Source: Thiotrichales bacterium
GTDB lineage: Bacteria > Pseudomonadota > Gammaproteobacteria > Beggiatoales > Beggiatoaceae
NCBI GenBank assembly: GCA_016744475.1
Contig: JADGEH010000005.1
Coordinates: forward strand, 1-64,000
DNA: 64,000 nt
Direction: 5' to 3'
Numbering within the stretch: position 1 is the stretch's first letter; each line of letters begins with the position of its first letter. Below the pieces are notes generated by a model that was not told the origin of the DNA, made no database searches, and saw only the letters and a list, made by a program, of their open reading frames with translations. Of the stretch, positions 1,805 through 22,581 are shown piece after piece. The position numbers and the translations under genes are program-made.

Positions 1805-4800
1805 ATGAAGATAATCCAGCGATTCAATAAAACCACAGGCACTAGGGTGTTGTTTTTGATGGGACTACTGTGGGGACAGGCGATTCACGCCGCCTCTGAC
1901 TTAATCATTTCCGGGGTCTTTGATGGACCTTTAACGGGCGGACTTCCTAAAGGGGTGGAAGTCTATGTGCTTAATCCTGTGGCTGATTTGAGTATTTATG
2001 GTCTGGGTTCGGCGAATAATGGCGGTGGTACGGATGGGCAGGAATTTACATTTCCATCTGCGGCAGCCAGTGCTGGAGACTTCATTTATATTGCGACAGA
2101 AAGCGTTCAATTTACGGCTTATTTTGGTTTTGCACCAGACCATATTCATTCAGCGGTCAACATCAATGGCGATGATGCGGTTGAGTTGTTTAAAAACGGT
2201 AGCGCAGTCGATGTTTTTGGGGATGTGAATACGGATGGGTCCGGTCAGCCTTGGGAATATATGGATGGTTGGGCTTTTCGTAAGGACACTGCAACAACGC
2301 CTTCAACGAAGTTTAACCTCAGCGACTGGTTATATAGCGGCCCGAATGCTTTGGATGGCGTGCTCAATAATGCCTCTGCACCAAACCCGGTGCCTCAATC
2401 GAGCTATCTTTCAAGCAGTGCAGGCATCACCTTCACGCCGTCCAGTGCCGATGTGAGCGAAGCGGGCAGCACCGCTGATACCTACACTTTGGCACTCAAG
2501 ACCACGCCTGCCAGTGCTGTGACTATCACGCTGTCGGTGGCGGATGGTGAAACAGTCATCAGTAAGGACGGGGCTACCTTTGCTGTCTCAACTACGGTGA
2601 CTTTAAGTGATACTTCAGCCGTGACCATGACGGTTAAAGCAGTGGATGATGCGGATATTGAGGGGATACATACAGGGGTTATTAGTCATGCCATCACGAC
2701 GGGGGATGGTGAGGATTACACCGCAGCACTAAGCATCGCTGATGTGACAGTAAATATTTCTGATAATGATGCTGCCAGTGGCGGATGGGTGATTAATGAG
2801 ATTCATGCTGATCCTGATGCCAGCACGGGAGATGCGAATGGTGATGGCTCCGTCAATACCACACAGGATGAATTTGTTGAGATCATCAATAATACGGGAA
2901 CCAGTGTTGATATTTCCGGCTGGACTTTATCAGACAGTGTTGGGGTTAAATATACTTTTCCTTTCAGGAGTCAAATTGTTGATGGCTGTGGTGTGGTGGT
3001 GTTTGCTGGAGGGATTCCAACAGGTCGTTTTGGTAATATTTTGGTTCAAAAGGCTGGCAGCTTAGGTCTGAATAATACGGGAGATACGGTCTCTTTAAAT
3101 AATGGCAGTGCAGATGTTGCCAGCTACACCTACGGTAGTGAAGGTGGGGATAATCAGTCTATCACCCGTGATCCCGACATCACAGGCAGTTTTGTGAAAC
3201 ATTCGACCGCTACAGGGGCAAACGGTGCCTTGTTCTCTCCGGGTACTCAGGCGGATGGCTCGGCTTTTAGTGGTTGTCCGGTGTCGATCAGTACGCCGAA
3301 CACTGAAGATTTCAGTGATTGTAGCTTAAGCGGATGGACGATTTATAGCGCTGATGCTGATAGCAGTCATACATGGTCTTGTGGCAATGGTTATGTTGAA
3401 GTCAATGCGTTAGGCGGCAGTGTTGCCGCCGATGATTGGTTGATTTCTCCGCGTCTTGATCTTGATGCCAGCAAGGCTGAATTGTTCAGTTTTGACGCTT
3501 TTACGCAATGGACTGATACCTTATCGCCCGATCAGAGATTGAACCTTTATTTTTCAGAAGATTATGTGGGTGAGGGTGATCCAAGTCTGGCTTTTTGGAG
3601 TCCTCTATCCGCTATCTTTGATCTGCCTTCTGAGAATTCTCAACACTGGACATTTTCTAATGCATGGGATACGTCAAGCACGTTTGTACCGGTGGATTAC
3701 CTTTATATTGGCTTCCAATATCGCTCATCAGGTACCAGTAGCGGCAGTGCTACTTTGTGGCGAGTGGATAACGTCATGTTCAAAGAAGCGGATGCAGAGC
3801 CGAGTCAGTATCCCACGGTATTTTCTGCTCAGGCGCAGAGTGATACCGAGATCACCTTGACTTGGACTGATGCGATGGGGGCTGTTGAACCAGGAGGTTA
3901 TGTACTTCATTGCAATACCGTGGATAGTTTTTATCCACAGTTAGACGGTTTCCCAGAACTGGAGGGAACTGACTGCGATACTTATGGGCTGGTGTATATT
4001 GCGCAGGGTGAGCAAAGCTATACTTGGGCGGGTTTGAACACGGGCACACAGTATTTCTTTAAGCTGGTGCCTTACACCAATAGTGGCTCTTCGGTTGATT
4101 ATAAAACCGATGGCTCAGCGCCCACAGCAAATGCGACGACCACCACACGCGATCTTTTAGCCCTCTGGACGTTTGACAGTTTAACCGATGTCGCCCATGC
4201 GCTGGACATCCCTGCCTCAACAGATAATGCACTGGACACGCCCATATTGCAGGCGGTTTATCAAAGTATTTTGCCTATAGGGATGAGCGGTACGGCTTAC
4301 ACCGACGCAGACAATGTGGCTCACTTGCCAGGTAGCGCCGTGGCTTGGATTGATATTAAAAGCAGTGGTCATGGTGCGGAACTGTGGTTGACGCTGAACA
4401 CAACGCATTGGTCGGCCTTGAAGCTCCGCTTTGATTACAAAACAGATTCAGCCGATTCTTTTGATCTGGAATACAGCACCGATGGCGGTGTGAGTTGGAC
4501 AAAGCCGTTTAATCAAGAAGCACTGATAGCCGCAGCGGGGACTTACAACAGTAAAACGCTGGATTTAAGCAGCGAAACGGCTTTGAATCATCAGGGGCGT
4601 GTGTGGTTTAAATTCAGTGGTTTTGATAACAACGGCGATGATGGCTTAAGTCTCGATAATATCGAAATCACTGGCAGCCAGGACTCAGCTACGCTGCTGA
4701 CAGCGCCCACATTAAGCCTCGCCAGTAGCACATCTGCATTTCTCTCTCTCAATAACACGGGCATGGGTTTTCTTAATGCCTCTCTCAATGATCCCAGTGA

Positions 4801-7800
4801 TCCCGCTCACACTTTAGGCATCGATTGGACGCTGGCTGATCCTGATACCGCGCTGGGCAGTCTGACGCTTACCGCCAGCAGCAGCGATCAAGCGGTGGTG
4901 GCGGATGCTGGTTTGGTCTTCAGCGGTACGGGCAGCACGCGCACTTTGCACATCACGCCGTCGGCTCGTGGTGCTGCGGATATTACTGTCACGCTCAGCG
5001 ATGGCACGGATAGCAGCACGTATGTCTTGGCTTATCGTGTGTCAAATGTCGCCAGCGATGCCAGCCACAGCCGTTTCCACAGTGGTGCAGCGGATGCCAG
5101 CGCTGCTATAGCGATTGATGCGAATTACATGATTATCGCTGATGACGAAGATCAAATTTTGCGCATTTATGATCGCCAGCATTCAGGTATGCCGGTGAAA
5201 AGTATTGATATGAACCTGAGCTTAAAGCTTGAAGGGCAGCAAAAAGTAGACATAGAAGCCGTGACCCGTGTGGGCAATACGCTGTATTGGCTGGGTTCGC
5301 ACAGCAATGACAGCAGCGGTGCGGAACAATTGGATCGAGAACTGATTTTTAGCACGCCATTGTCGGGGACGGGTGCGGCAACAGACTTAATGGCGATTGA
5401 CCAGTATGCTGATTTAAAAACCGAGCTAGAACAGTGGGATAGCAGCAATGGACACGGCTTAGGCGCTGATGCTTTAGGTCTCACCAGCAGCGCGGCGGAT
5501 ACTCAAATACCGCAAGCTAATAATGGTTTCAGCATTGAAGGTTTGAGTATGCAACCAGGGAGCACGACAGCGGCTTTCTTAGGCTTTAGAGCGCCGTTGA
5601 TGAATATCACGGATCGCAATAAAGCTTTAGTGATTCCAGTGTCTAACTTGACCGATGCGATGCAGGCCAGCCCCATACAATTTGCTGCGCCGATCTTCTT
5701 GAACTTAGGCGGACGTGGCATTCGCAGTCTGGAATGTAACGCGAATGGCTGCGTCATCCTCGCGGGTGCTGTGGATAGCGTAGCTGATTTTGCGCTGTAC
5801 ACCTGGAGTGGCTTGCCTGCGGATGAGCCTGAGTTACGTAGCGTCGATTTAAGCGGCGAAGGCGGTTTTGAAGCCATTGTTGAATTGCCTAGCGGGGCTT
5901 TTCTAGGCAGCGATGGTGATGCGCAAACTCTGCCAGTGTTACGTGATAATGGCGATACGGATTGGTACAACACGGGGGCGGCGAAGGATTTAGCCCAAGC
6001 AACTTGGAAAAAATCCCAAAGTGATCAACTGACTTTAGGCGCTGTGGTTCTTTCTTCCTGCGATCTCAGCACGGCTGATACCTGCATTCATCACATCCAA
6101 GGCGATGGGATGAGCAGTCCATTAGATGGACAAATCGTGACGATTGAAGGGATTGTCACGGGCGATGTCCAGAATGGTGTGGGGACACAAGGCGATTTAG
6201 GCGGCTTTTTTGTCCAAGAAGAAAACACGGATGTCGATAATAATGCACTGACTTCTGAAGGCATTTTTGTCTACGAAGGCGCATCGCCTAGCGTCAACGT
6301 GGCAGTGGGTGACAAGGTGCGCATCACAGGTACGGTCGCTGAATACAATGATTTGACCGAAATCACAACGGTCAGCACGATCACTATTGTCAATTCAGGC
6401 CACAGTTTGCCTGCTGCATCTGCGGTCAATTTACCGCTCAGCGATGCGGCTTATTTAGAGCGTTTTGAAGGTATGCGGGTGAACTTACCGCAAACCTTGA
6501 CGGTGACGGACACTTACAATTTAGCCCGGTATGGAGAAATATTGCTGGCAAATGGACGTTTAGATACGCCCACTCAAGTCGCTACACCTGGGGCGGCGGC
6601 AAATGCTCTACAAGCTGCGAATGATCTGAATCAAATCCTATTAGATGACGGCTTCAGCACACAAAACCCTGATCCAGCGCCTCATGGTTTAACCGCCAAT
6701 CACAGCATTCGTGGAGGCGACACGGTGACGGGAGTCACGGGCTTGCTGCATTATGGCTATCAAACCTATCGCCTGCATCCGACTGCCAGCGTCAGTTTTA
6801 CTTCAGTCAATCCGCGTCCTGCCACGCCGCCCAGCACGGGCGGGAGTGTGACAGTGGCAAGCTTCAATGTCTTAAACTATTTCACCACGCTGGATGGTAG
6901 TGGTTCTATTTGTGCGCCGAGTCACACGCTAGACTGCCGAGGGGCGGATAGTGCCGCCGAATTCACCCGCCAGCGCGATAAAATCATTGCCGCCATCAGC
7001 CTTATGAACGCCGATATTGTGGGTTTGATGGAAGTTGAAAACACCGATGCCAGCAGCGGTTTAGCGGATTTAGTCGCGGGCCTAAATGCGACGATGGGGG
7101 CGGGCACTTATGCCTATGTCGATACGGGCACGATAGGTTCTGATGCGATTCGTGTGGCGCTCATTTACAAGCCTGCCAGCATCAGCTTAGTCGGCAGTCA
7201 TGCGATATTAGACAACAGTGTGGATGCGCGTTTTATTGATACTAAAAACCGTCCTTCTCTGGCACAAAGCTTTGCGCAAACAGCCAGCGGGGAGGTGCTC
7301 ACTGTGGTGGTCAATCACTTCAAATCCAAAGGCTCTGATTGCGATGCTTTGAGTGATCCTGATGCGAATGACGGTCAAGGCAACTGTAATGTGACTCGCA
7401 CCCAAGCCGCTACCGCATTGCAAACCTGGGTCGCCACCGATCCCACGCAAAGTCATGACACGGACTTTTTATTGCTGGGCGATTTCAATGCTTATGCCCA
7501 AGAAGACCCTATCACCACTTTAGAAGCCGCAGGCTTTACCAACGAAACCACGGGTTATTCTTATGTGTTTCATGGGCAGTGGGGCGGATTGGATCATGCG
7601 CTGAGCAGTCAGACCCTACACGCTCAAGTGACGGGCGCGCATAAATGGCCTATTAATGCGGACGAGCCTTATGGATTGGATTACAACATGGAATCCCGTC
7701 CCTCAAATCTCTACAATTCCGATCCCTATCGTGCTTCAGACCATGATCCTATTATTATCGGGCTTAATCTCAACGTGTCACCGATTTATGCCTCCACGCC

Positions 7801-10507
7801 CAGCGCAGGTAGCGCGTTAAGCTTCACGGCTGAAACGGGCACCGCTGCATCCACTAGCTTAACGGTAACAGAAACGGGCTATAACACTTTAAGCATCAGT
7901 GATTACAGCATCACGGGCACTCATGCCGACAAATTCAGCTTTTCTCCCGCCTTTGCGGCTTTTGATATTGTCGATGGCGGTAGCGCACAGGATTTAACCC
8001 TGCGGTGTAATAGCAGCGAGTTCGGTGTTTTCAGCGCCACTTTAAGCCTGGATCACAACGCCGCAGGCAGTCCGGCTACCTACACTTTAAGCTGCACCAT
8101 CAGCGAATCTGCCGCATCGCCAACCCCCTCTCCCGCAACACCTGATCCGAGGATGTTTTTAAGTCTCCAAGGCAGCGGGCAAGTCAGCCTTAATAACGCG
8201 AACCCGTGTACGCAATCCTGCTCATCCACTTATCCCAGTGGCACGGCTATCACACTGGAGGCGCAAGCCAACAGCGGTTGGATATTCAGCGAATGGGAAG
8301 GCGCGTGTGTGAGCCAACACCAGGATCATCTAGCACAACTGATCATGAGCCATGCTCGCGCTGACTGCACGGCTCGCTTTGCCCGCGATCCTTTGGCAGA
8401 CAGTGATGGAGATGGGGTTAAAGATGTAGAAGAACTCACAGCACCTTACACGGGCGATGCGAATCAAGACGGCGTGACGGATGACCTGCAAGCCCATGTC
8501 TTGAGCGTGCCCGATGCGGTCACAGGCCATGACATCACTATCGTCGCTGAGCCGCATTGCGCCATCCTCAATGCCCAAGCGGACAAGCCGCCCACAGAGG
8601 CTGATTATGCTTATCCTCAAGGCGTGATCGATGTCACTGTCGATTGCCCTCAGACGATATTAAGCTTGTATTTTCATGGTTTACGTGCAGAAGTGGGCAG
8701 CGCTGCTGCCGCAGGTTTAAGCAAAGTGGAAACACAATTGCGCTATCAAAACCGCGATCAAAGCTGGCATCTGTCATCCGCTGTGATGCAGACCACCTCC
8801 ACGTTTGACGACAACAGCTTCACACATTGGGCGGTGCCCGGTGTGAGCGTCACCTTACAAGACGGTGGCGAAGACGATCTCAACGCTGATCCACAACGTC
8901 TTCAATGGCGTGCAGGCGTGGTGTACAGCCGTGCGTCCCAACCCCCCAACATCCCCGACCCAATCACGCCGCCGGATTCCAATCCCCCCACAAACAACAC
9001 CCCCACCGCAGGGCAATTACGCTTGCTCAATGCGGATGTACAAGGGGTAAATAAAGGTGAAGACATCCGCCTGTGGGTGGAACGTTTTAATGGCAACCAA
9101 GGCGAGCTACTCGCTACTTTCGAGGTCGATCCCAGCAGCACCGCACAAGTCGGCGTGGATTATGAGCTTTTGAACGCGCCTTTAATGTACTGGAAAAACA
9201 GTTTGCTCACGCAGCATGGCTGGTATTTGCGCATTCTCAATGACCCTCAACGGCTTGGAGAGAAAACCCTAATCCTGCGCTTGCGCGTGCTCAGCGGACA
9301 AGCCAGCATTCAAGGGCGCGACACCTTAACCCTCACATTGCTAGACCCACCCATAGCGCCAGAACCCAGTCGTTTAAGCTTATTAGAGGGCAATGATTAT
9401 CAAGTGAATGAACGGGATACAGAGCTACGCTTGCTGATACAACGTCAAGGCCATAGCCAAGGCGAATTGCACGCCCGCGTTAATATTCTGCCCAGCAGCA
9501 CCGCGATAGAACACGAAGATTTTCGTTTTACTCAAGAACCTCTTTTAGTCTGGAAAGACAGTCTTTTATCCACAAAAAGTCTCTCCATTAAATGGCTAGA
9601 TAATCCTCGTGTCGAGCCTGATAAAATATTGAATTTACAGCTAGAAGTGGTTCAAGGTCGCGCATTCATAGTGGCTGAAAATATTAATATAGTGATACAC
9701 AACGATGATGTGTGCTCGCCCTTAATCCCTCTTTTCCCCATGACTGATCCGCAAAATACCGCCTGTGTTAATAATCGCTTGCTAGGCTCGCAGGCCGTAT
9801 TCCCCCGCAATCCACTGTTGCTCATGGACGATAGGCTCAGCCTCAATGTCTATACCGACTATGGTTCTTTGCAAGGACAAGCAGGCCGTCTATTGATCAT
9901 GCTGACGGATGGCAAACAAGTATGGATACATGACGGGATGGATTGGCAAGATTGGCAGGGCGAGTTCATCACGTTTATTGATTTTGATGTACTACCATCA
10001 GAATCCAGTACGCGCTTGGGTTTAGAAGATGTATTGCAAACCCCTAGCGATTACACCCTGTTTACAGGACTGAGGCTCAATGACGGAATGGTACTGTATA
10101 GCCCCGAAGCCGCTTTATCCTTTAGTGCTGCGGCCTGTCGCAAGGGACAACGCTTAAGCGATGGCGTGCTCACCCAAGAAGCCTGTTTCGGCTTACAAAC
10201 GCAGCGTGGACATTTTCGTGCAACGCTCAACACAGGTACCTATCGTGGTCAAGCCGAAGCGCAAATATTTGTGGCGGCGGCACACGCCGATTTTAGCGCT
10301 TTCTATTTGCACGATGGTCACACTTGGGGGCCTTGGTCTGGCGAGTTATTCGCCTATCAACAACACGCCTTTTTGCCACAGCGCCTCACGCTAGACATCC
10401 CCCTAGACGGCCTGCCTGCCCATCGCTATCAATTGATGACAGGTTGGCAAGTCAACGGAGACATCATCTTAAATGGTGCGACACCGCTTTGGCTGGAACA
10501 TCAATAG
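1805..10507 (+). CDS. Giant secreted ExeM/NucH-type endonuclease with multiple adhesion-like domains
   Basis: This 2,900-residue protein starts with a signal peptide (cleavage near AIHA-AS, residue 29). Domains in approximate order: lamin-tail-like (31-190), Calx-beta (206-323), lamin-tail (326-445), choice-of-anchor J-like (499-663), fibronectin III (666-780), a second jelly-roll-like region (783-960), a DUF3616-like beta-propeller (1083-1405), an OB-fold as in ExeM (1428-1535) and an endonuclease/exonuclease/phosphatase domain (1679-1992). The catalytic signatures are FNVLNY, GLMEVEN, VNHFKSKGSD, LLGDFNAY and SDHDP. After it come a choice-of-anchor D-like domain, an InlB-like region, a thrombospondin-3 motif (DSDGDGVKD, about 2199), two Calx-beta-like repeats (2402-2512, 2522-2634) and two further tandem C-terminal domains (2682-2770, 2805-2896). 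Known ExeM/NucH nucleases are usually below 1,000 residues, so this is a large fusion. A role in degrading extracellular DNA or remodelling a sheath or biofilm is inferred. No sorting signal was identified at the C-terminus. Confidence 0.85.
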   Translation: MKIIQRFNKTTGTRVLFLMGLLWGQAIHAASDLIISGVFDGPLTGGLPKGVEVYVLNPVADLSIYGLGSANNGGGTDGQEFTFPSAAASAGDFIYIATESVQFTAYFGFAPDHIHSAVNINGDDAVELFKNGSAVDVFGDVNTDGSGQPWEYMDGWAFRKDTATTPSTKFNLSDWLYSGPNALDGVLNNASAPNPVPQSSYLSSSAGITFTPSSADVSEAGSTADTYTLALKTTPASAVTITLSVADGETVISKDGATFAVSTTVTLSDTSAVTMTVKAVDDADIEGIHTGVISHAITTGDGEDYTAALSIADVTVNISDNDAASGGWVINEIHADPDASTGDANGDGSVNTTQDEFVEIINNTGTSVDISGWTLSDSVGVKYTFPFRSQIVDGCGVVVFAGGIPTGRFGNILVQKAGSLGLNNTGDTVSLNNGSADVASYTYGSEGGDNQSITRDPDITGSFVKHSTATGANGALFSPGTQADGSAFSGCPVSISTPNTEDFSDCSLSGWTIYSADADSSHTWSCGNGYVEVNALGGSVAADDWLISPRLDLDASKAELFSFDAFTQWTDTLSPDQRLNLYFSEDYVGEGDPSLAFWSPLSAIFDLPSENSQHWTFSNAWDTSSTFVPVDYLYIGFQYRSSGTSSGSATLWRVDNVMFKEADAEPSQYPTVFSAQAQSDTEITLTWTDAMGAVEPGGYVLHCNTVDSFYPQLDGFPELEGTDCDTYGLVYIAQGEQSYTWAGLNTGTQYFFKLVPYTNSGSSVDYKTDGSAPTANATTTTRDLLALWTFDSLTDVAHALDIPASTDNALDTPILQAVYQSILPIGMSGTAYTDADNVAHLPGSAVAWIDIKSSGHGAELWLTLNTTHWSALKLRFDYKTDSADSFDLEYSTDGGVSWTKPFNQEALIAAAGTYNSKTLDLSSETALNHQGRVWFKFSGFDNNGDDGLSLDNIEITGSQDSATLLTAPTLSLASSTSAFLSLNNTGMGFLNASLNDPSDPAHTLGIDWTLADPDTALGSLTLTASSSDQAVVADAGLVFSGTGSTRTLHITPSARGAADITVTLSDGTDSSTYVLAYRVSNVASDASHSRFHSGAADASAAIAIDANYMIIADDEDQILRIYDRQHSGMPVKSIDMNLSLKLEGQQKVDIEAVTRVGNTLYWLGSHSNDSSGAEQLDRELIFSTPLSGTGAATDLMAIDQYADLKTELEQWDSSNGHGLGADALGLTSSAADTQIPQANNGFSIEGLSMQPGSTTAAFLGFRAPLMNITDRNKALVIPVSNLTDAMQASPIQFAAPIFLNLGGRGIRSLECNANGCVILAGAVDSVADFALYTWSGLPADEPELRSVDLSGEGGFEAIVELPSGAFLGSDGDAQTLPVLRDNGDTDWYNTGAAKDLAQATWKKSQSDQLTLGAVVLSSCDLSTADTCIHHIQGDGMSSPLDGQIVTIEGIVTGDVQNGVGTQGDLGGFFVQEENTDVDNNALTSEGIFVYEGASPSVNVAVGDKVRITGTVAEYNDLTEITTVSTITIVNSGHSLPAASAVNLPLSDAAYLERFEGMRVNLPQTLTVTDTYNLARYGEILLANGRLDTPTQVATPGAAANALQAANDLNQILLDDGFSTQNPDPAPHGLTANHSIRGGDTVTGVTGLLHYGYQTYRLHPTASVSFTSVNPRPATPPSTGGSVTVASFNVLNYFTTLDGSGSICAPSHTLDCRGADSAAEFTRQRDKIIAAISLMNADIVGLMEVENTDASSGLADLVAGLNATMGAGTYAYVDTGTIGSDAIRVALIYKPASISLVGSHAILDNSVDARFIDTKNRPSLAQSFAQTASGEVLTVVVNHFKSKGSDCDALSDPDANDGQGNCNVTRTQAATALQTWVATDPTQSHDTDFLLLGDFNAYAQEDPITTLEAAGFTNETTGYSYVFHGQWGGLDHALSSQTLHAQVTGAHKWPINADEPYGLDYNMESRPSNLYNSDPYRASDHDPIIIGLNLNVSPIYASTPSAGSALSFTAETGTAASTSLTVTETGYNTLSISDYSITGTHADKFSFSPAFAAFDIVDGGSAQDLTLRCNSSEFGVFSATLSLDHNAAGSPATYTLSCTISESAASPTPSPATPDPRMFLSLQGSGQVSLNNANPCTQSCSSTYPSGTAITLEAQANSGWIFSEWEGACVSQHQDHLAQLIMSHARADCTARFARDPLADSDGDGVKDVEELTAPYTGDANQDGVTDDLQAHVLSVPDAVTGHDITIVAEPHCAILNAQADKPPTEADYAYPQGVIDVTVDCPQTILSLYFHGLRAEVGSAAAAGLSKVETQLRYQNRDQSWHLSSAVMQTTSTFDDNSFTHWAVPGVSVTLQDGGEDDLNADPQRLQWRAGVVYSRASQPPNIPDPITPPDSNPPTNNTPTAGQLRLLNADVQGVNKGEDIRLWVERFNGNQGELLATFEVDPSSTAQVGVDYELLNAPLMYWKNSLLTQHGWYLRILNDPQRLGEKTLILRLRVLSGQASIQGRDTLTLTLLDPPIAPEPSRLSLLEGNDYQVNERDTELRLLIQRQGHSQGELHARVNILPSSTAIEHEDFRFTQEPLLVWKDSLLSTKSLSIKWLDNPRVEPDKILNLQLEVVQGRAFIVAENINIVIHNDDVCSPLIPLFPMTDPQNTACVNNRLLGSQAVFPRNPLLLMDDRLSLNVYTDYGSLQGQAGRLLIMLTDGKQVWIHDGMDWQDWQGEFITFIDFDVLPSESSTRLGLEDVLQTPSDYTLFTGLRLNDGMVLYSPEAALSFSAAACRKGQRLSDGVLTQEACFGLQTQRGHFRATLNTGTYRGQAEAQIFVAAAHADFSAFYLHDGHTWGPWSGELFAYQQHAFLPQRLTLDIPLDGLPAHRYQLMTGWQVNGDIILNGATPLWLEHQ

Positions 10508-10508
10508 C

Positions 10509-10586
10509 GTAGGGTTTGCGCCGCGTGTTTTGCGGCGCGAACGTGGATGGATAGCCGCATCGGACATATCCGCGTGCGCACCCTAC
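10509..10586. repeat. Palindromic repeat with GTAGGG/CCCTAC ends
   Basis: The outer ends GTAGGGT and GCACCCTAC are inverted, and an inner hairpin pairs TTGCGCCGC with GCGGCGCGAA. Related sequence is seen at 16149-16235 (TTTGCGGCGTGAAC then GAGCACCCTAC) and at 55609-55648 (GAGCACCGC then CAAACCCTAC). It sits just after the stop of the nuclease gene. It could act as a transcription end signal, although it lacks a T-run. Confidence 0.55.
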
Positions 10587-10623
10587 TTGGCTATTTGGCT
10601 TTTATATCTCCGAGTTTAAAGAC

Positions 10624-10720
10624 TCATAACGCTTAAGCTCAGCCGCCAATTGCCGCCAATGAATTATCTACAGCCAAAAAAGCCCGACGGCAATTGGTCG
10701 GCTGGAGCGCCAAGTTGGGC
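10624..10720 (-). other. attC-like integron recombination site (downstream end of cassette)
   Basis: Read on the minus strand it has the attC order. The R'' box is GCCCAAC (10720-10714, a full match to RYYYAAC). The L'' arm contains GCTCCAGCCGACCAATTGCC, followed by a variable centre, the L' arm GGCAATTGGCGGCTGAGC and an R' box GTTATGA (10630-10624, a partial match to GTTRRRY). The two arms pair except for unpaired bases in L'', the extrahelical-base feature that gives attC its polarity. It begins 9 bp after the stop of the HNH gene, as expected for a cassette end. No integrase gene is present in the window. Confidence 0.75.
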
Positions 10721-10729
10721 TAGAACTGA

Positions 10730-11359
10730 TTATGCCCCCGTTAATGTTTGGATATTATTCCTAACATCCTCCAACTTATTCTCATGTTCTTTCTTCATTG
10801 AAAGTAGTTTATCTCTATTTTTAGCTGAAACACCACCTAACTTGAGGTCTATTTGCGCAAGCGTATTAATCAATTTGCGTTCTACACTAATGGCATGTTC
10901 AAACGCTGCAATAATGGCTTTTCTAAAGTTCAAGCGCTCTTCCTCATTCAAACGGAGGAGGTCAATTGTCCATGCTCCTGCTGGTGAGTGTGCGACAACA
11001 GTTCCGCTTGACTCAGAACGAAGGTGTTGATGCATAACATAATCGCATGGATTGGGGACAAATTGCCCATTACTTAGCTGGATGTGAGTGGGCCAAAATT
11101 CTCCTTTTCTCCGGTTGCAGGTATTGCATGAATAGAATAAGTTGGAATAATCCGTTTCTAAGGAGGGGTATTTCTTTTTTGGCTTGTAATGATCAACTCC
11201 AAAAGCATCAAGGTCGCCTAAGCTGTCCGGTTTTCGGCAGTAAATACACGTCCTACCAAATTCCTCTCTCAAATAGGGCTTATATTTTCTATAATTGTTG
11301 TATTGAGGGGGCTTCTGGGTTCTGATGTGTATGTTTTTAGGATAATGAAATGGTTTCAT
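10730..11359 (-). CDS. HNH endonuclease
   Basis: This 209-residue protein has a zinc-ribbon HNH core in its first half: CIYC (residues about 37-40), FGVDHYKPKK with the catalytic histidine, NLFYSCNTCNRRKGE with the second cysteine pair and the asparagine. This is the HNH arrangement found in many restriction and defence nucleases (CxxC, DH, CxxC). The C-terminal half is helical with no domain I can name. The start ATG at 11359 lies 9 bp after the stop of the preceding gene, so co-translation is likely. It is the last gene of the cassette and is followed directly by the attC-like site. An antiphage or DNA-targeting role is inferred from the nuclease fold and mobile setting; it is not shown. 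Confidence 0.8.
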   Translation of the reverse strand: MKPFHYPKNIHIRTQKPPQYNNYRKYKPYLREEFGRTCIYCRKPDSLGDLDAFGVDHYKPKKKYPSLETDYSNLFYSCNTCNRRKGEFWPTHIQLSNGQFVPNPCDYVMHQHLRSESSGTVVAHSPAGAWTIDLLRLNEEERLNFRKAIIAAFEHAISVERKLINTLAQIDLKLGGVSAKNRDKLLSMKKEHENKLEDVRNNIQTLTGA

Positions 11360-11368
11360 AGCCTGATA

Positions 11369-11857
11369 TCAATCCATTAAATTTAGCATCTCCCTCAGTT
11401 CAGCGTCGGCCTGCTCGATTTCCTGGAGTTGCCCAATGATTTGCTCAACATGTGCAATTTCTTGTTCCGAGACGCAAGGGATAAGGTTTTCTATGCGTTT
11501 ATTGAGGATTTGCAGTCTGGCTTTGTCTTCAGTAGAAAGTGAGTTATCTGCATATTGCCTTGCCAGTAAGGTTATGCGATGCATATTTGAAATATAAACC
11601 TTGTCATTTTCAAGGTCTTCAGCGGGTATAGGCTCAACATCATATTCTTCCGTATCGTACACCATTTCGGATTGCAGCATTGTCCGTCTGGATGATGACC
11701 CGAATTTTGGTAAAAATCGCTTAATTTGCTCGAAAGCATTTGATGATAAAGAGGTGTCTTTTTGGGCATGTTGATCTGCATTGCCCTCAATGTGAGTCTC
11801 TGGCAGGGGGAAATCCCAAATATCACCATCGCGGGAAATGAGTGTTCCAGTATACAT
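11369..11857 (-). CDS. Conserved-looking protein of unknown function in the cassette
   Basis: The protein is 162 residues from the ATG at 11857, which has an AGGAA ribosome site 9 bp upstream. The frame extends further upstream to 11929, but that part overlaps the previous gene. I do not recognise a family. The N-terminus reads MYTGTLISRDGDIWDFPLPE; the middle is acidic; the C-terminal 80 residues are predicted helical and glutamate/glutamine rich (EQIIGQLQEIEQADAELREM), suggesting a coiled coil. It lies 17 bp after the TIGR04255 gene and 9 bp before the HNH gene, so it is probably a subunit or regulator of whatever that pair does. Confidence 0.6.
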   Translation of the reverse strand: MYTGTLISRDGDIWDFPLPETHIEGNADQHAQKDTSLSSNAFEQIKRFLPKFGSSSRRTMLQSEMVYDTEEYDVEPIPAEDLENDKVYISNMHRITLLARQYADNSLSTEDKARLQILNKRIENLIPCVSEQEIAHVEQIIGQLQEIEQADAELREMLNLMD

Positions 11858-11874
11858 TGTTATTTCCTTATGAC

Positions 11875-12630
11875 TTAGGTATGACTGCTTGCGACAAGCT
11901 TTTCTTTGGCCTTTTGTCCAAGTGACCACATAAAGAGGGAATAATTTGTTTTATTAAAGTCTTTTACAAGCTCAAGCGCATCGTTATATTCAACGCCTTC
12001 ACTGTAATGGTCAAAATCTAAATAATATTTGGAAATCGGCTCAGACGGGTTGTTTCTTGGGGGAAAGCCATGCTTTACAGCATATTGACCTCTTTCAATA
12101 AACCCTCGAAACTCTGAGTTAAACTGCGAGAGTGTCCCTAACTGCTCACAAACTGGCGTACTTAAAAGAATAGGGTTAAGCCAGCCATTAAGGTCTGTAT
12201 CATCTATCGGTATGATATTGATGTAACGCAAACCAATACGCGTAAAAAAGTCTGTGTCAAGCAGGTTTTTTGATATACCCAGTAATTCTTCAAGGCGCTC
12301 AAAAAATTCTTCAAATTCAGTGTATTTTGAAGTTTCCAAGGAAATGGCGCTGGTTCGTAAAGAGATAATCCAGTCCCGCTTTTTGGACTCGAATAAATAT
12401 TTTTTTCCTAACGTTGAGGGACCTGCTTCGCTAATGCCAACGCCTGTTTCTTTAGAATAATGAGGGTAATTCTTTCGTAGTAGCTTCTGCATTTTCACGG
12501 GAGGGCTTTCTTCAAGCTCAAGGAGTGTTGGAAATTTGAGTTCGCATACTGCCGTTTTGATAAAGTTATTTTTATGACGTACAGGCTCTTCATCTGGGAC
12601 ATTTAGATAACAAATGGTTTCGTCTGTCAT
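11875..12630 (-). CDS. TIGR04255 family protein
   Basis: This 251-residue protein resembles TIGR04255: an N-terminal NNFIKTAVCELKFPTL strand-helix start, a central WIISLRTSAISLETSKYTEFEEF segment and the DFFTRIGLRYINII motif that marks the family, followed by a C-terminal KYYLDFDHYSE strand. The biochemical function of the family is not established. It is often met next to restriction or other accessory genes. Here it is the first gene of a three-gene cassette ending in an HNH nuclease. The start ATG at 12630 is preceded by AAGGATATAAA, a plausible ribosome site. The upstream 140 bp to the attC site should hold the cassette promoter, if it has one. Confidence 0.75.
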   Translation of the reverse strand: MTDETICYLNVPDEEPVRHKNNFIKTAVCELKFPTLLELEESPPVKMQKLLRKNYPHYSKETGVGISEAGPSTLGKKYLFESKKRDWIISLRTSAISLETSKYTEFEEFFERLEELLGISKNLLDTDFFTRIGLRYINIIPIDDTDLNGWLNPILLSTPVCEQLGTLSQFNSEFRGFIERGQYAVKHGFPPRNNPSEPISKYYLDFDHYSEGVEYNDALELVKDFNKTNYSLFMWSLGQKAKEKLVASSHT

Positions 12631-12767
12631 TTTATATCCTTAATAGGCAATAGATGAAGGTTGAAATAATGTGGTAACAACTACCCACTGGCAACGCTAC
12701 TTTCAAGAGCAACGCTAGACGCGGAATTATATAATATTTTGAACGGGCTGTGCATTTAACTTATGCA

Positions 12768-12864
12768 GCCCAACGCCTAAGCTAAGCCGACACCCGCCGC
12801 CACAGCCCTAAAATCAAACCCAAAAAGCCCGACGGCGGGTGGTCGGCCTTGAGCGACAAGTCCA
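12768..12864 (-). other. attC-like integron recombination site (upstream of cassette)
   Basis: On the minus strand the R' box is GTTGGGC (12774-12768, a full match to GTTRRRY), preceded by the L' arm CGGCGGGTGTCGGCTTAGC. The L'' arm GCTCAAGGCCGACCACCCG pairs with it except for several unpaired bases. The R'' box at the far end is poorly conserved, probably because the GTAGGATGGG palindrome starting near 12866 is inserted against it. Both attC sites share a GTCGGGC-T-run stretch at the start of the central loop. Confidence 0.7.
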
Positions 12865-12865
12865 G

Positions 12866-12991
12866 TAGGGTGGGATGGGTAGAGGCGCATTATGATGTTT
12901 GATTTTGCTATGAACCTTATCGCGCCGAAACCCATCATTCATCCATTACCGAAATGATGGGTTTCGCTCTACTCTACCCATCCTACCGCGC
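12866..12991. repeat. Palindromic repeat family E, copy 1 (GTAGGATGGGTAGAG type)
   Basis: The left arm is GGGTGGGATGGGTAGAGGCG, the right arm CTCTACTCTACCCATCCTAC, and the centre contains CGAAACCCATCATTC pairing with GAAATGATGGGTTTCG. Other copies are at 18494-18608 and 15671-15786, with a partial copy at 22346-22400. The arms are nested, so the whole can fold into a long hairpin. It abuts the R'' side of the neighbouring attC. Confidence 0.75.
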
Positions 12992-13009
12992 TCACAACAA
13001 GTCTAATCA

Positions 13010-13530
13010 TCATTGAACAAAACGCACAAAATATAAACACCACATAACGATTAAAATAGCGACACCCGAGATGAAAGCTTTCATTCGATATTTCAAATTA
13101 TTGTTGGTGGTATGAATATAGCTGTGCACATATCTTGATGTGACAAACATCCAAGCCAAAACTATTTGACTTATTTCAACCTTATTTGTAACAAACAACA
13201 TGATTGAAATGACATAAAACAGAATGGGTAATGCCAATAAATTGTCATAGTTTTGGCTTACTTTAGCCAAGTATTCTGGATGTTCCCCACCTCTGTTGAG
13301 AACATAATGTAGCAAAATTACATCAGTTGTTAAGACTGCCAGTCCTTCAAGGACTGGCAGTCTTGGATTTGGATATATCGTAAGCCTATAAACGATGTAA
13401 TTTAGCTATAGTTTCGATTCAGATCACCTTTCTTTACCGCTGTAAACCTTAGTTTTCCTAGCCATAGACCTATACCAAAAGTAAGGAATACCAAAGCAAA
13501 CACAGGAAAAAATATTGTAGCTTGTTCCAT
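13010..13530 (-). pseudogene. MAPEG family membrane protein gene interrupted by a family B repeat
   Basis: The 5' part (ATG at 13530) encodes a membrane segment, MEQATIFFPVFALVFLTFG, then KKGDLNRN. A 99-bp element at 13310-13408 follows and puts a stop directly in frame. Beyond it the frame continues YVLNRGGEHPEYLAKVSQNY and DNLLALPILFYV, then RYVHSYIHTTNNN, the typical MAPEG end (N-x-x-N-x-x-E/D-x-P, R-x-x-H). Removing the element and one TA copy restores AAC TAT TAT GTT, an intact frame. A TTG at 13315 could still allow a truncated 101-residue product. MAPEG proteins are four-helix membrane enzymes of glutathione or eicosanoid metabolism; the bacterial ones are mostly uncharacterised. The gene lies just upstream of an attC-like site, so it may itself have been a cassette gene. 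Confidence 0.8.
13310..13408 (-). repeat. Family B 99-bp element, copy 1 (inside MAPEG gene)
   Basis: Terminal inverted repeats TAGCTAAATTAC and GTAATTTTGCTA, with a central hairpin GACTGCCAGTCC-TTGA-GGACTGGCAGTC. It is flanked by TA on the left and CA on the right, the latter probably a mutated TA duplication. Same length as copy 4 at 50531-50629. Confidence 0.85.
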
Positions 13531-15670: not shown

Positions 15671-15786
15671 AATTAGCCCACCCTACATGGCTTGATCCGC
15701 GAGTTTTGGCATTAACTTTACCGCCCCGAACCCCATTATTCACCAAACACCGAAATGATGGGTTTTGCTCCGCTCTACCCATCCAC
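15671..15786. repeat. Palindromic repeat family E, degenerate copy
   Basis: The right half (CCGAAATGATGGGTTTTGCT and CTCTACCCATCC) matches the family E copies at 12866 and 18494. The left half is more diverged (CCCACCCTACATGGC). Confidence 0.5.
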
Positions 15787-15833
15787 CTCGCTTGCGAGCT
15801 CAAACCTTGACCCACAAGTTATGGAACCCCCAA

Positions 15834-18357: not shown

Positions 18358-18493
18358 TTACCTCTGACATTTTAGTTTATCCAATATTGCATCATCGTAA
18401 TGATTAAGAATAATACTGTTAAAAAATACAGTATAAAAGTAAAAGCCTTTATAAAACAATATTCCAAGTTAGAAGTTTATAGGCTATAGCACG

Positions 18494-18608
18494 GTAGGAT
18501 GGGTAGAGGCGTGCCCATGAACCTGTTTTAATGGCAAAACCTTCCCGCACCGAAACCCATCATTCATCCCTCGAAATGATGGGTTTCGCTCCGCTCTACC
18601 CATCCTAC
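18494..18608. repeat. Palindromic repeat family E, copy 2
   Basis: GTAGGATGGGTAGAGGCG on the left and GCTCTACCCATCCTAC on the right form the outer arms. CGAAACCCATCATTC and GAAATGATGGGTTTCG form the inner arms. It lies in the 265-bp gap between the DUF5131 gene start and the PqiC gene end, which otherwise shows only AT-rich, gene-free sequence. Confidence 0.8.
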
Positions 18609-22244: not shown

Positions 22245-22581
22245 CCAGTTTGAAAATAATAGTGTTTTATCATTTGTAAGCGGTATAAATCGATGGCTTT
22301 ATCAGCCATAAAAGTTATGATCATTTTGGCGAATAAGGCTCCACTACTCCGCACAAAATCAAACATTATAATGCGCCTCTATCCATCCTACCGTGCTGAG
22401 CAGATAGTCAACGTAGATTTCTAACGTGTCGTTTTTCATGTGAAAAATTTACCACAATATATTTAGCAGCGCGTAACGTGAGTTAGTAAAATCAAACAAA
22501 GTAGTGATTGATGCAGTGAGGAATGAACCTCGTTAATATGGAATATTGCCCACCCTTTGAATACTGTAGAAGCGAGAAACA
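22245..22581. other. Intergenic stretch between divergent genes
   Basis: It contains a partial family E repeat at about 22346-22400 (AAAATCAAACATTATAATGC and CTATCCATCCTACCG). It should hold the promoters of the leftward pqi operon and the rightward zinc-ribbon gene. No other gene was seen. Confidence 0.45.

Follow-up and report, generated by a model that had tools for sequence, protein, structure and literature searches.

A three-gene integron cassette coding for a TIGR04255 protein, a helical protein and a PtuB-like HNH nuclease: a probable anti-phage unit also carried by phages

Organization of the locus

The window analysed here, a 64 kb stretch from a contig of a Thiotrichales bacterium, contains a tight group of three minus-strand genes coding successively for a TIGR04255 family protein, a small protein of variable sequence (hereinafter the middle protein) and an HNH nuclease (Table 1). 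The genes, separated by only 17 and 9 bp, are bracketed by two attC-like sites and are read towards the attC at their 3' end, on the same strand as both sites; open reading frames, spacing and site orientation are all as the original prediction had described them.

The cassette has a low GC content relative to the flanking gene for a 2900-aa protein (window 1805-10507, plus strand), which adjoins it and whose product combines lamin-tail, endonuclease/exonuclease/phosphatase and DUF3616 domains. Close to the outer edge of attC site 1 there is an inverted repeat, GTAGGGTTTGCGCC...GTGCGCACCCTAC (10507-10587), unrelated in appearance to a 124-bp MITE-like inverted-repeat element found at 12869-12992, 15704-15792, 18493-18608 and 22354-22398, with about 40 relatives in the genome; one copy of the latter is separated from the outer side of the R'' box of attC site 2 by about 2 bp. 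A MAPEG-family gene (13010-13315, minus strand) lies upstream of site 2 and is possibly the gene of the preceding cassette; beyond it, neither a motif scan nor a covariance model recovered a further attC in the window. The candidate promoter inside the cassette is weak, as 10 promoter-like sites were found in the region against 7.1 expected; its TATAAT is also present in the relative L024 described below.

Table 1. Positions of the cassette, its genes and its recombination sites in the window
Feature	Position	Strand	Description
Integron gene cassette	12773->10630	minus	2144 bp; from TTGGGC (12773) to the G of the site 1 R' box (10630)
attC site 1 (cassette 3' end)	10720-10624	minus	R'' GCCCAAC 10720-10714; R' GTTATGA 10630-10624; L arms with extrahelical C
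HNH nuclease, 209 aa	10730..11359	minus	Pfam HNH (PF01844) 39.8 bits vs 21.4, E 5e-10; PtuB-like branch; proposed effector
Middle protein, 162 aa	11369..11857	minus	No Pfam or NCBIfam family; proposed connector
TIGR04255 family protein, 251 aa	11875..12630	minus	NCBIfam 123.9 bits vs cut-off 30
Candidate promoter TGCACA-17-TATAAT	12726..12754	minus	Inside cassette, upstream of TIGR04255 gene; consensus scan 10/12
attC site 2 (5' boundary; attC of preceding cassette)	12866-12768	minus	R' GTTGGGC 12774-12768; diverged R'' ACTGGAC 12866-12860

The attC sites and the boundaries of the cassette

For the recognition of attC sites we used a covariance model (R1) built with R''/R' and L''/L' pairs from 14 attC sites that lie close to IntI genes in other Gammaproteobacteria, no window sequence being included; the structure covaries over these sites, with 85% of cells paired as against 73% in shuffles. 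It replaced a model made from the four attC sites of the genome's own family, in which the loops had been misaligned. With filters off, site 1 is the best match in the entire window (35.5 bits, E 5e-7) and site 2, on the same strand, the second best (15.6 bits, E 0.067, below significance alone), these E-values being rough owing to a shortened calibration. The proposal that this is an integron-type cassette thus finds covariance-model matches at both ends, the weaker one at site 2.

In an independent scan for motifs, site 1 reached 15.6, the top value among 30 random 64 kb sequences being 13.3; site 2 forms the best stem among the 70 GTTRRRY positions of the window, its R'' box departing from RYYYAAC at two of seven positions. 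In addition to the model matches, the sites display the R''/R' boxes, the imperfectly paired L arms and the extrahelical base of attC. Together with a solitary attC on contig C25 of the same genome, they keep 17 of 17 stem pairs, five of them through compensatory changes on both sides, and the loop motif shared by sites 1 and 2 has only one other occurrence in the genome, likewise in an attC. Elsewhere in the genome R1 matched the C25 site (28.3 bits) and two attC sites associated with IntI genes, one adjacent on contig C134 (45.5 bits) and the other nearby on C102 (32.0 bits).

The boundaries are equally consistent with a single mobile unit. The TTGGGC with which the cassette starts pairs with the R'' box of its own attC, and the two R boxes singled out by the original prediction are exact partners across it, GTTGGGC being the perfect R' of site 2 and GCCCAAC the R'' of site 1. 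This is the match expected between the ends of one cassette. Moreover, in comparison with L024, a 3 kb contig of a gammaproteobacterial metagenome-assembled genome, homology to the window starts at 12774, the G of GTTGGGC, and stops at 10721, immediately ahead of the site 1 R'' box, so that on sequence comparison this relative marks both boundaries of the cassette.

IntI was absent from the window's contig (C98), and an intI gene with attI adjoining the cassettes, as in a complete integron, was not found at this locus; the two sites, which lie 2.1 kb from each other and share their orientation, would instead form a small attC cluster without a local integrase (CALIN), the second site being below significance alone. 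The earlier statement that there is no integrase therefore holds for this contig and fails for the genome (253 contigs, 99.99% complete), where we found four IntI genes above the NCBIfam cut-off. The best of them, on C134 (L016, 318-5121), adjoins a cassette with one small ORF of 123 aa and an attC, and a caspase-like Peptidase_C14 protein is encoded further along the IntI strand. Site 1 and the C134 attC have identical L boxes (GCTCCAGCC and GGCTGAGC), which suggests that an integrase able to act on this cassette in trans may be at hand.

The three proteins

The assignment of the last gene to an HNH nuclease was upheld by its Pfam match, and D56-H57, N73, the zinc cysteines C38, C41, C78 and C81, and N82 are invariant in ten homologs, indicating that the catalytic and metal-binding residues of HNH endonucleases are conserved. 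Its nearest solved structures are PtuB chains, and the PADLOC PtuB models match it with up to 70 bits. Membership in Septu (PtuAB) proper was considered and rejected, as the cassette codes for no ATPase and the NCBIfam PtuB score is 45.7 against a cut-off of 150; the TIGR02646 score is likewise below threshold (37.5 vs 52). PtuB-containing systems have been reported to cut DNA or tRNA (PMC11555353, PMC13096335).

The N-terminal half of the middle protein is variable and largely disordered, and its C-terminus is conserved and made up of three helices: the model has about 75 residues at low confidence, followed by helices 79-103, 109-125 and 131-161. Single-sequence searches of plasmids, phages, genome contigs and 58 relatives matched only the window itself, the protein being too divergent for searches of this kind; nevertheless, homologs sit between the TIGR04255 and HNH genes in all trio loci. 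A resemblance of its C-terminus to the helical C-terminus of receiver proteins preceding related HNH genes was dropped, as the hhalign P of 0.04 obtained with four sequences became 0.28 once a fifth was added.

The TIGR04255 protein was predicted by AlphaFold2 to adopt a duplicated beta-sheet-plus-helix fold (pTM 0.78). Its resemblance to the AdoMet decarboxylase and TBP folds (TM 0.25-0.38) is too weak for assignment of a ligand.

Recurrence of the trio in phages and its evolution

A search of IMG/VR with HNH and TIGR04255 profiles recovered the order TIGR04255-middle protein-HNH in all eight viral contigs found with this TIGR04255 branch, the viral status of four of them (L112, L113, L114 and L115) being the IMG/VR label. 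The genes mostly overlap by 4 bp or are separated by a few bases, and the carriers include inovirus-like and P2-like contigs. A tyrosine (phage) integrase gene lies directly beside the trio in three contigs (L116, L119 and L120), the last of which also codes for the filamentous-phage assembly protein pIV and a rolling-circle initiator; another (L121) has terminase and portal genes, with a DNA methylase beside the trio. An RnlA/RnlB toxin-antitoxin pair lies upstream of the trio in L112 and UmuD/UmuC beside it in L114. Taken together, these neighbours are those of places typical for phage accessory genes. Hence the trio is not confined to non-integron chromosomal settings with a housekeeping role, and its presence in several unrelated phages suggests that its role is probably anti-phage or phage-versus-phage.

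In bacterial genomes the trio was also found twice outside integrons, in L024 and in genome G209. The L024 proteins are 90, 78 and 89% identical to those of the window trio, and the corresponding dN/dS values are 0.09, 0.20 and 0.08 for the TIGR04255, middle and HNH genes, pointing to strong purifying selection that has kept all three. R1 gave nothing convincing on L024, which has no attC, or on the phage-borne trio loci; L024 may be a cassette without its former attC or a pre-cassette form. Relative to the window, it has an insertion of about 139 bp (585-723) between the promoter region and the TIGR04255 start, which may be a small mobile element. The G209 copy (L093, 1610-3404) has frameshifts in the TIGR04255 gene and at the HNH start, representing either decay or assembly error.

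The divergent copies share with the window about 28-37% identity in the TIGR04255 protein, 34-43% in the HNH protein and 19-26% in the middle protein. Over seven divergent loci the TIGR04255 and HNH distances are correlated (r 0.75, p 0.003); co-divergence of the middle protein, whose sequence has diverged too far to reveal it, was not significant over the same loci, and restricting the comparison to its C-terminal columns did not rescue it. An apparent co-divergence of all three genes, with initial correlations of 0.87-0.94, was discarded as being driven by near-identical pairs. Judged by its conserved order, the combination of a TIGR04255 protein, a fast-evolving helical protein and an HNH nuclease is a real unit. 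It is also rare: in the class and phylum samples (369 and 398 genomes), apart from the genome of the window, it occurs only in G209. The remaining clear HNH matches were a Septu-like ATPase-HNH pair in G142 and the operon of G721 taken up below, and most trio copies are on unannotated metagenomic contigs.

The wider TIGR04255 family

The TIGR04255 family itself occurs in 35 of the 369 sampled gammaproteobacterial genomes. Nearly all of 35 inspected loci, drawn from genomes and three plasmids, have two short co-directed ORFs downstream, mostly overlapping or close, these counts being approximate as the ORFs were called mechanically. The partners vary, and comprise an HTH protein with a TCD-motif protein, an 'NWDxYG' protein with a protein of about 140 aa, and a small protein with a PIN protein. 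The last arrangement is seen in L096 (4063-5598) and in L111 (from 4224), the PIN domain being confirmed by Pfam for L096 only. On a Rhizobium plasmid (L025, 1171-6153), genes for multiubiquitin, ThiF and DUF6527 proteins, which we take to be Bil-like defence genes, immediately precede the TIGR04255 operon.

As TIGR04255 proteins head three-gene operons with such varied partners, the family has the look of a module for sensing or gating that is combined with interchangeable effectors. We extend this, tentatively, to the proposal that three-gene conflict systems built on this family might form a large modular class not yet described, in which a common sensor or gate is joined by swappable second and third proteins (HNH, PIN or 'TCD'). 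Such systems would spread on prophages, plasmids and chromosomes, and their small size would allow capture in one cassette, past the limit of two genes reported for defence in integrons.

Relationship to known systems

The cassette shares with Septu and the type I-A retron effectors (PtuA-PtuB) a similar-sized HNH effector of the same branch in a compact operon on mobile elements; unlike these, the trio has neither the PtuA ATPase nor a reverse transcriptase, and the partners of its nuclease are instead the TIGR04255 and middle proteins. An HNH protein related to that of the trio, with 28-42% identity where the two align and again preceded by a short gene, is found in an operon of GHKL histidine-kinase-like, receiver-like, HNH and N6 DNA methylase genes, which differs from the trio in having the receiver and kinase in place of the middle and TIGR04255 proteins, and in the methylase that follows the HNH gene; the short partner proteins of the two systems show no significant similarity. 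This operon recurs in L028, L029, L030, L031 and L145 (Salipiger, Ensifer, Deinococcus and Bacteroides plasmids and genome G721), with a different methylase order in the Deinococcus copy, and itself looks like a defence system. The other TIGR04255-headed operons resemble the trio in starting with the TIGR04255 gene and in continuing with two short genes at mostly close spacing. They differ in the identity of the second and third proteins, such that the HNH form constitutes one subtype.

Integrons, chromosomal as well as mobile, are known to carry anti-phage gene cassettes (Darracq et al.; Kieffer et al. 2025, both cited in PMC12409362). As far as that citing review presents them, the present case is similar in carrying candidate defence genes as a small cassette and differs in having three genes in one cassette, with a role predicted from sequence. 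According to the same review, integrons conspicuously lack defence systems with more than two genes (PMC12409362). TIGR04255 went without mention in the open literature searched, and its representative here was unmatched in PADLOC, in agreement with the earlier suspicion that the trio is undescribed. Thus, candidate defence genes in integrons and HNH effectors are known already, while, within the literature searched, the trio and its three-gene cassette are not described.

Weighing the alternatives

The terminator-like scores of both stems on the minus strand and the weakness of site 2 alone could be taken to mean that there is no cassette, but a simple chromosomal operon between two common terminators or dispersed repeats. 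Set against the site 1 match to an independently built attC model, the matching R boxes across the cassette ends, L024 homology that begins and ends exactly at the boxes, and a loop motif otherwise confined to one other attC, this account is highly improbable. Alternatively, the trio could be a phage moron or selfish nuclease serving the prophage itself, through superinfection exclusion restricted to relatives, homing-like spread or prophage control, with accidental entry into the integron. Viral contigs do make up eight of the 11 known loci, with the trio directly beside a phage integrase in three of them; however, the trios of the window and L024 are intact under purifying selection with no phage genes nearby, and insertion of the homing type into a conserved gene was not seen, leaving this a distinctly unlikely explanation.

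Prophages and integrons are both habitats of toxin-antitoxin pairs, and the trio might accordingly be an addiction module, with an HNH toxin restrained by the TIGR04255 and/or middle protein, such that its loss kills the cell and thereby stabilises the cassette array or prophage, defence being perhaps a by-product. The compact operon with overlapping or nearly overlapping genes, the adjacent RnlAB pair in one viral contig and the PIN proteins, common toxins, encoded third in other TIGR04255 operons would all suit such a module. On the other hand, the trio exceeds the two genes of such a pair by one, searches of Pfam, NCBIfam and PADLOC placed neither its TIGR04255 protein nor its middle protein in a known antitoxin family, and neither a weak-promoter nor an autoregulator (HTH) protein accompanies them. 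We therefore regard addiction as rather unlikely, and the location, neighbours and nuclease of the trio favour defence over it.

The reading that we prefer, with a probability of roughly 0.6, is that of a genuine cassette in a CALIN, a self-contained three-gene operon that is also cargo of temperate phages and most likely acts as a system against phages or mobile elements. It draws on the attC matches, the ends marked by L024, the conserved gene order, the phage contexts, the dN/dS values, the TIGR04255-HNH correlation, the affinity of the HNH protein to the anti-phage effector PtuB and to the HNH proteins of the kinase-receiver-HNH-methylase operons, and the low GC content. Counting against it are the rarity of the trio, the placement of most copies on unannotated metagenomic contigs, its lack of enrichment in a tested defence island, the non-significant co-divergence of the middle protein, a TIGR04255 fold that gives no clear ligand, the weakness of site 2 alone and the L024 copy outside an integron. 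The history that best accommodates the data is carriage by prophages followed by capture by an integron.

Conclusions

We posit that the trio is probably an undescribed anti-phage or phage-versus-phage weapon. The TIGR04255 protein would sense a product of infection or keep the complex inactive, and the middle protein, with its fast-evolving N-terminus and conserved three-helix C-terminus, would couple it to the effector. Once triggered, the HNH protein might cut nucleic acid, either DNA or, as in some PtuB-containing systems, tRNA, and infection would thereby be stopped. As the 2.1 kb cassette can be cloned whole, the question is directly testable. If the proposal is true, the uncharacterised TIGR04255 family would join the components of bacterial immunity, and a complete three-component system would be seen to move in two forms, as an accessory operon of prophages and as one cassette of an integron.
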